This document shows positions 41,452 to 43,083 of a DNA stretch of 64,000 nucleotides, one piece after another (the first letter of the stretch is position 1; each line of letters opens with the position of its first letter). Origin of the DNA: Alcanivorax limicola (GTDB taxonomy: Bacteria > Pseudomonadota > Gammaproteobacteria > Pseudomonadales > Alcanivoracaceae); NCBI RefSeq assembly GCF_019931215.1, contig NZ_JAIOUB010000003.1, positions 1-64,000 on the forward strand, read 5' to 3'. Below the pieces are notes generated by a model that did no database searches, had not been told where the DNA came from, and saw only the letters and a program-made list of their open reading frames with translations. Made by a program: the position numbers and the translations under genes.

Positions 41452-43083
41452 ATGAAGAAAATATTGGAAGTCGCTGGCATTTCGCTGCTGGCAATGGCGC
41501 TTGGCGCCTGCAGCAACGAAGACGAAAAAGCCGTGGATACCATGGCCAGTGTTGAGAGCGTTGGCGGCGCTGAAGGTGCGCAGGCTGAAGGTGTGCAGAG
41601 TGTGACGCCACCTCCGGGGTCCTATCGGCTCAGTTGCAGCAACGCTTCAGTGAACAACGATGTGTTGTCCGCCTCCTGCAAGACGCTGGACGGTGGTACG
41701 GTCTCCGCGACGCTTCAGGGGGTCAGTGGTTGCCAGGGGCAGATCATGAACGGCGGTGATATCGGTAATATCGACGGCAGTCTGATCTGTATTCCGGATC
41801 TGCCGAAGGTTGTGCCGGGTGCGACCTTCCCAAACTCCGAGATGACCATCAATGGCTGGATTTATGGCGGCGATGAGCAGGCGATCCACCAACACGCCTG
41901 GAGCATCTGGGCCGGGCTGACGAAGCAGGCTGGCACGGTGGACGGGCAGCCGGTGCGTGCCTTTGAAACCTGGGCGACGCCGAGCAACATGATTTACCGG
42001 ATGCACAATGAAACCGCGCCGCCACAGCGGCGTCTGGATCTGGCGCCAGCACGGCAGTTGCGCAACGTGACGCCAGAAGTGGCCGCCATGGCCAGTGGTG
42101 ACAGCGTGAGTGATGGCGATACCGGTATTGCCGTTTCCGTTGCCTACAACCCGCCTGCGGCACGGCATGCCATCAACAATCGTCTTTTCCTGCAAAGCAC
42201 GCTGGATCAGTTGATCAAGGATGGTTACACGGATATTCCCGATTTCCCGGTCAATGCCATCACCATCAAGCCGGTCTACAAGGTCATCAATGCCAGCAAT
42301 ACCGAGAATGGCATTTACACGTTCCCGGGCTGGCCCGGTACGCCCGACCCGGCCAAAACCTTTGGTGAGGGTGACTGGGGTGCTTGCGTCTATGTGGATA
42401 TCAACGGTTCGGGTCGTGGCGGTAACAGCATCGATGCCGGGTGCCAGGGGCGTAGTGCGGACAACACGTTTTTCCTGAACAACTTTATCCACCACCCGGT
42501 TACCGAAGCGGATGCGGAGTATCTGGCCGCGCAGCTGAGCGTCAAGGTGGCGCCCGGTGATTACGTGATTCTGGTCGGCATGCACGTGGCGACGCGGGAG
42601 ATCAAGCGCTGGGTGTGGCAGACCTTCTGGTGGGCAGCGGACGCTGACGCGCCCTATGCACCCAGCAGCAAGGCCATTGCCGCGGCCCGTCCGGCAGAGC
42701 TGGATGACGCGGCAGCGCACTATGCCATGAGTGTGGCCTACAGCATGGTGTCACCGGCGCAGCCGATTACCGGCGGCGAAAACGTGGGGCAGCCGGTCAT
42801 CGCATATAACCCGCATCTGGAAGCCGGATTTGATCCGGGTGTGTTCCAGATTTCCCGGCCGATCAATGGCACGGATCGCTACGATTATGGTGTGCAGACG
42901 AACTGCATGACCTGTCACGGTCTGGCGGTTTACGACCCGACGGTGGATTACAGCGACAGCGCCAATCGGGAGAAGCCCTACGCCACGGATTTCTATATCG
43001 GTCTGGATGATGCGTTCTTTGAAGGCAAGCTGAGGCTGGATTTTGCCTGGTCAATTCTCGGCGTGATGGAGCTCGATAAGTAA
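41452..43083 (+). CDS. Lipoprotein with a CVNH-like domain and a c-type haem site
   Basis: A 543-residue lipoprotein (signal MKKILEVAGISLLAMALGAC, Cys 20 or 21 lipidated). After an Ala/Glu/Gly-rich linker, residues 56-113 read like a cyanovirin-N homology domain: GSYRLSCSNASVNNDVLSAS, then C76, C94 and C113 with NIDGSLICIPDL; the spacing SC..L.ASC..LDG..C..NIDGSL.C is characteristic. Residues about 120-470 form an unknown globular part with His and Trp residues (QAIHQHAWSIW, FIHHPVT). A haem motif CMTCH stands at 485-489. CVNH domains bind mannose-rich sugars. A lectin-like, haem-carrying surface or periplasmic protein is the inference. Confidence 0.75.
   Translation: MKKILEVAGISLLAMALGACSNEDEKAVDTMASVESVGGAEGAQAEGVQSVTPPPGSYRLSCSNASVNNDVLSASCKTLDGGTVSATLQGVSGCQGQIMNGGDIGNIDGSLICIPDLPKVVPGATFPNSEMTINGWIYGGDEQAIHQHAWSIWAGLTKQAGTVDGQPVRAFETWATPSNMIYRMHNETAPPQRRLDLAPARQLRNVTPEVAAMASGDSVSDGDTGIAVSVAYNPPAARHAINNRLFLQSTLDQLIKDGYTDIPDFPVNAITIKPVYKVINASNTENGIYTFPGWPGTPDPAKTFGEGDWGACVYVDINGSGRGGNSIDAGCQGRSADNTFFLNNFIHHPVTEADAEYLAAQLSVKVAPGDYVILVGMHVATREIKRWVWQTFWWAADADAPYAPSSKAIAAARPAELDDAAAHYAMSVAYSMVSPAQPITGGENVGQPVIAYNPHLEAGFDPGVFQISRPINGTDRYDYGVQTNCMTCHGLAVYDPTVDYSDSANREKPYATDFYIGLDDAFFEGKLRLDFAWSILGVMELDK

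Follow-up and report, generated by a model that had tools for sequence, protein, structure and literature searches.

Among the described systems closest to the protein analysed here are the cytochromes P460 and c'-beta (PF16694) and the lectins of the cyanovirin-N homology (CVNH) type (PF08881). Cytochrome P460 has a ferrous band near 460 nm and takes part in hydroxylamine oxidation, according to PMC11928373. The window, by which we mean the whole stretch of 64,000 nucleotides from Alcanivorax limicola (positions 1 to 64,000 of contig NZ_JAIOUB010000003.1, assembly GCF_019931215.1), contains a gene whose product joins half of a CVNH lectin to a domain with one c-type haem site, and this architecture is accepted with high confidence. 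A search of titles and abstract starts gave no publication which joins CVNH to a cytochrome or which describes the family of the haem domain; six papers mention both CVNH and cytochrome c somewhere in their text. We think it somewhat probable that the protein is an envelope lipoprotein with one c-type haem and an N-terminal half-CVNH lectin, likely to be a redox enzyme and not a simple carrier. That it is a lectin-tethered redox enzyme is held with moderate confidence.

The original prediction described a 543-residue open reading frame with CMTCH at residues 485-489; the start, strand and length of the frame at 41452-43083 (+) and the motif positions were all confirmed (Table 1). The cysteines of the protein are residues 20, 62, 76, 94, 113, 312, 331, 485 and 488. 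An AlphaFold model built from 32 rows (the window protein and 31 of the 41 homologous loci) has a pLDDT of 84.4 and a pTM of 0.85, with pLDDT below 50 for residues 1-47. The description as a lipoprotein holds for the window protein and its close Alcanivorax relatives, whereas several CVNH-bearing relatives have, as judged by eye, an ordinary signal peptide. The CXXCH lies on a predicted exported protein and the genome of the organism encodes CcmF, a component for c-haem attachment, so that on sequence grounds the protein is a putative c-type cytochrome. It would be exported, lipidated and have its haem c attached by the Ccm system.

Table 1. Coordinates of the features of the gene and its product in the window.
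Feature	Position	Strand	Basis
Signal peptide with lipobox LGAC, Cys20	41452..41511	+	Sequence; lipidation predicted from the motif
Linker, residues 21-52	41512..41607	+	Low AlphaFold confidence over most of its length
Single CVNH repeat, residues 53-118, conserved cysteines 62, 76, 94 and 113	41608..41805	+	PDB profile search, Pfam on isolated rows, Foldseek, 11-row alignment
One-haem domain, residues 119-543 (~425 aa)	41806..43080	+	41 homologous loci, pLDDT mostly >85, phrog_19967
Lys273 codon, invariant	42268..42270	+	55/55 rows and 11/11 viral-contig proteins; aligned with the P460 cross-link lysine
MHVATRE, residues 377-383; M377, H378 and E383 invariant	42580..42600	+	55/55 rows each; 11/11 viral-contig proteins
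CMTCH haem c attachment motif, residues 485-489	42904..42918	+	Sequence; conserved in homologues

A CVNH pattern with four cysteines had been claimed for residues 56-113. The whole window protein has no match in Pfam, and its isolated CVNH region reaches E 0.12 and 13.6 bits against PF08881, below the cut-off of 24.5 bits. A profile of 11 rows (alignment A2: the window protein and 10 of the 12 CVNH-bearing loci, the truncated L008 and L013 being omitted) found 14 PDB sequences at E<=1: 12 are cyanovirin-N or a homologue, one is the mannan-binding lectin 2y1s, which we take to be a CVNH protein, and one is unrelated. The best E values were 1e-6, for a tandem construct, and 4.5e-4, for a sequence common to nine cyanovirin-N entries. 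Pfam CVNH is matched by 10 of the 11 isolated rows (best E 2e-4). Of the 32 full-length rows, 10 match the NCBIfam model mannose_binding_lectin (best 3.3e-5), against which the window row scores 17.1 bits, the cut-off being 80. With the model of the window protein as query, Foldseek ranks 1-23 are all CVNH, at E values of 0.033-1.1 with none below 0.001. The superposition is 0.8-1.3 Å rmsd over 34-35 columns on the CVNH entries 2jzj, 3hnu, 3hnx and 2l9y, and the CVNH alignments of 52-58 columns have an rmsd of about 10 Å.

The profile search proposed in the original prediction as a check on the lectin domain did find CVNH, and both the 11-row profile and Foldseek rank it first. The likeness in fold and profile thus stands, but the aligned region has a single repeat where the usual unit has two. 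By profile and modelled fold residues 53-118 are a real CVNH-type module consisting of one of the two repeats, with a hairpin that is probably packed otherwise than in cyanovirin, where the arrangement is swapped. In the comparison of the profile with PDB the cysteine pair of cyanovirin corresponds to Cys62 and Cys76, and cysteines 94 and 113 are an additional pair conserved in 11 of 11 rows. Two genomes of one genus (L061 and L062) contain frames of 253 and 204 residues which match one CVNH repeat (profile positions 1-53, below cut-off), so half-CVNH proteins may exist outside the haem-domain family.

CVNH is absent by motif from 29 of the 41 loci, which suggests that the lectin is dispensable for the basic job of the haem domain. 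This absence, the single repeat, and the sugar-contact residues of cyanovirin-N, which we take to be only partly kept in the window module, could also mean that the module has lost its sugar binding and is a structural cap or a protein-docking piece only. We find this doubtful, given that the 11 rows have 22 invariant columns, that other family members carry an unrelated lectin fold, and that dN/dS between the window gene and L002 is 0.16 in the CVNH region, which is under purifying selection. The same comparison gave 0.09 for the haem domain and 0.36 for signal peptide and linker (47 aligned codons of residues 1-52). In the preferred reading the CVNH module would tether the protein to a glycan, be it a surface polysaccharide of the cell itself, the matrix or a neighbour.

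The haem motif is conserved, so that the second outcome which would have refuted the original prediction, like the first, did not occur: CXXCH is present in 41 of 41 homologous loci and persists where identity to the window protein has fallen to 26%. Because CXXCH was itself among the six scan patterns, the motif was rechecked without motif-based choice of frames in 19 loci from other searches (L043 and L045 duplicate L002 and L003); 18 have the motif, the exception being L058, a fragment with a stop. A 55-row alignment of the haem domain was made of the 41 loci, the window protein and 13 further rows whose selection depended in part on a CXXCH; 17 positions are the same in all 55 rows: H148, W150, W174, K273, M377, H378, E383, W387, W394, N453, P454, E457, C485, C488, H489, A492 and W533. 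The many invariant residues among them, such as H148, K273, M377, H378, E383 and E457, make the conservation enzyme-like. It is this set, of which 16 positions are also kept in 11 viral-contig proteins, that argues for an enzyme. His489 would be the proximal haem ligand, and invariant residues such as K273, M377/H378 and E383 would form the pocket.

The rest of the protein is as unfamiliar as originally stated. Residues 119-543 have no match in Pfam, NCBIfam or PDB sequences, and the sole family match is phrog_19967, a family of virus proteins annotated as of unknown function, which covers residues 120-534 of the window protein (E 1.5e-28) and is also matched by each of the 32 rows in the family alignment A1 (best E 3.5e-41). 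Foldseek gave no credible fold match for the haem domain; beyond rank 23 the best E among the best 50 of 54 rows is 1.4, and two MauG chains appear among these 50 at E 8.3 and 8.8 with a probability of 0.00. An internal duplication of the domain was considered and rejected, as the self-comparison with hhalign gave a single off-diagonal alignment with E 0.74.

A run of motifs in the haem domain, FPxxAxxxKP, MHVxTxE, WxWQTF and CxxCH, recalls cytochrome P460, and the order of the predicted strands and helices is by eye compatible with the P460 fold, an antiparallel sheet of five strands. In an hhalign comparison with 15 P460 rows the best local alignment falls on the lysine strand, with E 0.008 (counted as one comparison) and a probability of 4.9%. 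The 55-row haem profile gave three short collinear alignments with P460, on the CXXCH, on the lysine strand (p 0.019) and on the MHV strand (p 0.39). When 45 P460 rows were used, the best alignment shifted to a different register (E 0.0048) and that of the lysine strand, with K273, fell to second place; overall the hhalign probabilities against P460 are only 0.2-7%. K273 sits on the P460 cross-link lysine in the hhalign alignment with 15 P460 rows, in that of the 55-row profile and in a custom alignment which allows long insertions; its partner is read as the cross-link lysine because of its spacing to the place of Ala131 and because of the Met in c'-beta sequences, by comparison with Table 2 and text of PMC11928373. 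At the aligned place of the distal carboxylate the custom alignment has V375, which is not an acid.

The custom alignment has a score of 48.9. None of 300 column shuffles came up to this score, nor did any of 300 shuffles keeping the CXXCH end; it was reached by 1 of 300 permutations of 12-column blocks and 3 of 300 permutations of 25-column blocks. When the alignment was scored without the CXXCH end, the real score was reached by 1 of 300 shuffles. When 15 single P460 pieces were compared with 208 decoys, only two pieces beat all decoys, and for seven of them between 28 and 76 decoys did as well or better. There is no P460 chain among the best 50 of the 54 Foldseek rows, and PF16694 has no match at E<=1 in 32 rows and none at E<=0.01 in the genome of the window organism. 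From these mixed tests we regard it only as a tentative suggestion that the haem domain is a distant relative of cytochrome P460 with K273 at the cross-linking lysine. That the pocket is P460- or c'-beta-like, with K273 in place of the lysine that cross-links the haem, and would oxidize or bind small nitrogen or oxygen species, is a possibility to which we give about the same limited weight.

The bacterial homologues comprise 41 loci in Pseudomonadota, Nitrospinota, Ignavibacteriota and Bacteroidota, and 25-27% identical copies are present on three Sinorhizobium plasmids. The family is sparse: it is present in 5 of 57 related genomes (its own genome counted, one match being distant), in 6 of 398 genomes of its own phylum, in 6 of 296 genomes of the phylum of the flavobacterial locus L026 (one match being the fragment L058) and in 4 of 249 genomes of the family of L026, the centre genome being counted in the last three cases. 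In a tree of 42 haem domains, which is unrooted, contains L042 on a very long branch and has L008 cut at a contig end, the 13 CVNH rows form one group with support 100/99, a row from a Nitrospinota MAG included. This group stayed intact (100/98) in a tree without L042 to which two Sinorhizobium-like rows and nine distinct viral ones had been added. The CVNH fusion has a single origin and is present in more than one phylum; since the one group includes the Nitrospinota row, it arose once and was then moved between lineages or lost elsewhere. L044 and L048 are further CVNH-bearing members.

The haem gene of the window is flanked by a gene for an AEC-type permease and by sufE, both named by eye, and the order permease, haem gene, sufE is kept in L002, L003 and L129. 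Three genomes of the same genus lack the haem gene; the permease is kept, and the flanking isc/suf genes were not found within the surrounding 7.5-8 kb. No neighbour family is general among the 41 loci, six of which were less well read by the neighbourhood script because a longer overlapping frame displaced the haem gene. One cluster of frames occurs in 6 loci, mostly overlapping the haem gene on the opposite strand; the next-widest clusters (5 loci) are confined to Tenacibaculum, and some families, clusters 9, 10, 11 and 17 among them, are common to 2-3 loci of different genera.

Several local associations should be recorded. In all five Tenacibaculum loci (L016, L017, L018, L025 and L030) a kynureninase-like gene is divergent to the haem gene and a kynurenine-monooxygenase-like gene is nearby, as judged by eye. 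A tryptophan theme as a general explanation was rejected, the kynurenine genes being found in one genus and a fusion to a tryptophan-2-monooxygenase-like protein in 3 of 42 genomes. In both Nitrosomonas loci the haem gene is followed in the same orientation, some 430 bases downstream, by a gene for a dihaem peroxidase/MauG-like protein (L010:7952-9082 and L013:7959-9011), in which two CXXCH were seen by eye. A short molybdopterin-oxidoreductase-like gene (cluster 9, named by eye) is close to the haem gene in one Nitrospinota and two Chitinophagaceae loci (L005:6382-7080, L038:9101-9793 and L039 near 12331). The homologue in Sinorhizobium meliloti RCAM1115 (L059:1343-9137) follows genes for Nif11-type peptides and two radical-SAM RiPP genes, and that of strain USDA1963 (L060) does not have these genes ahead of it.

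Three flavobacterial loci, L022, L023 and L026 (Flavobacterium, Mesonia and Salegentibacter), have frames of 1256-1260 residues which include the haem domain. They begin with a flavoprotein, followed by a predicted beta-prism lectin of about 140 residues; a hydrophobic stretch that contains a lipobox-like cysteine then leads to the haem domain. There may be an internal start within these frames. The best PDB match of the flavoprotein is the tryptophan 2-monooxygenase 4iv9 (E 5.4e-69), and that of L026 matches Pfam Amino_oxidase at E 1.1e-47. The model of the middle part, from 3 rows, has a pLDDT of 74.8 and 109 Foldseek matches at E<=0.001, the best 50 of which are jacalin-related lectins or bacterial proteins with a beta-prism lectin domain. 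By sequence search this part matched only griffithsin, at E 0.79. The haem domain is in this way associated with lectins twice in the family, with CVNH and with the predicted beta-prism fold of the fusions.

These fusions bear on two alternatives to the enzyme reading. The fused flavoprotein could donate electrons to the haem domain, and the invariant M377, H378 or H148 could be a sixth ligand; the domain might then transfer electrons or act as a sensor, with a second protein ligand on the iron, without being catalytic itself and together with a partner protein. For a carrier the domain is large, however, at more than 420 residues and with many invariant polar positions, and at E<=1e-20 the flavoprotein was found in just 3 of the 42 genomes searched, being absent from that of the window organism and 38 others, and no neighbour is general; we rate this alternative as possible, although rather unlikely. 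The other alternative is that the haem domain generates or utilises an oxidant, peroxide or a different one, which the lectin aims at neighbours or predators. The similarity of the fused flavoprotein to amino-acid oxidases and monooxygenases and the peroxidase-like gene which follows in both Nitrosomonas loci can be quoted for it, but neither association is general and PADLOC found nothing for the whole window protein (for the haem part only DrmD, at E 0.072), and we consider it very unlikely. The roles suggested originally, namely surface attachment, polysaccharide oxidation and defence against phages or protists, gained no specific support from these neighbourhood and PADLOC results. The enzyme reading, with one-haem redox chemistry carried out near the tethering glycan, is the one we would keep.

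A scan of IMG/VR with alignment A1 gave 28 loci. Twenty-three of them (L130-L152) are metagenomic contigs of 14-349 kb, coding for nine distinct proteins of 450-461 residues which are 35-39% identical to the window protein and have CXXCH and no CVNH; the protein is the same in 13 of the contigs, and of 12 stretches compared, 11 are letter-identical to L132. L153-L156 are isolate genomes whose copies resemble those of Sinorhizobium, and L157 is a fragment. Of the 17 key positions A492 alone varies among 11 distinct viral-contig proteins, five of which have Ser there; the other 16 are unchanged. In the tree the nine distinct viral proteins and the flavobacterial fusions fall together within a clade of Bacteroidota.

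PHROGs assigned endolysins in L148, L141 and L131; in L148 the gene immediately following the haem gene was assigned as a tail-collar protein. The haem gene of L130 has an endolysin gene as its preceding and a tail-collar gene as its following neighbour; two tail-collar-like genes follow the fusion gene of L022, one being related to that of L130 (60% over 55 residues). Of the 9 distinct viral lineages, 4 have endolysin genes in the same stretch with the queries used and a further 4 have a thymidylate synthase; in 2 of the 9 a tail-collar gene is directly 3' of the haem gene. PHROGs was run on ten neighbours; L148:6145 and L148:7174 had no match and L136:9816 matched only families of unknown function. 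The haem domain is carried on contigs assigned as viral, by the IMG/VR assignment and by the neighbour genes, and this speaks against the plain phage-defence role of the original prediction, though the viral copies are without CVNH.

It might also be that the family is at its root a mobile envelope factor of phages and hosts, used for example for host-surface modification or exclusion of other phages, and that the window protein is a chromosomal, lectin-bearing version. Such an origin would agree with the 23 uncultivated viral contigs and the lysis and tail genes on some of them, with the coverage of the haem domain by phrog_19967 and with the patchy bacterial spread, but an annotated phage collection gave no match with four different queries, the viral rows are inside the Bacteroidota clade and not basal in a rooted tree, and no phage gene was recognised by eye beside the window copy. 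We judge it improbable.

In ammonia oxidisers, Alcanivorax-like bacteria and Bacteroidota, a conserved protein family of more than 400 residues with a haem, whose only model is a virus family of unknown function, is a candidate for a new redox enzyme. Should the association with lectins be functional, it would be a means of placing haem chemistry on a glycan surface, and a c-type haem protein near endolysin and tail-collar genes on viral contigs would raise the question of what use a phage has for redox chemistry. The most far-reaching proposal combines these points: the haem domain would found a class of c-type enzymes with one haem that is new and spread across phyla, possibly with a greatly enlarged P460-like fold and a lysine-haem cross-link; it would also be present in large uncultivated phages beside genes for lysis and tail proteins, and would have been tied twice, independently, to mannose-type lectin folds, which would amount to glycan-targeted haem chemistry at the bacterial surface. 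It is put forward as a speculation that is unlikely to be right as a whole.

Compared with the known systems, the window protein shares with cytochrome P460 and cytochrome c'-beta (PF16694) the single c-type haem site and the C-terminal CXXCH after a beta-rich domain; its haem domain is over twice as long and has large insertions. If the link to P460 were true, there would be large lectin-bearing relatives of the class of hydroxylamine-oxidising enzymes. With the CVNH lectins (PF08881) it shares the sequence pattern of the first repeat, the cysteine pair of that repeat and a three-stranded part that can be superposed, whereas its module has one repeat and not two, contains an insertion with the second cysteine pair (94 and 113), is fused to a haem domain and scores below the curated cut-off. 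The jacalin-related (beta-prism) lectins, predicted beside the same haem domain in the three flavobacterial fusions, have a fold which differs from CVNH and is absent from the window protein. The tryptophan 2-monooxygenase and L-amino acid oxidase flavoproteins resemble the N-terminal part of those fusions and not the window protein. A further close family is phrog_19967, whose profile of 410 positions spans the haem domain and leaves the CVNH part outside, and which carries no functional annotation.
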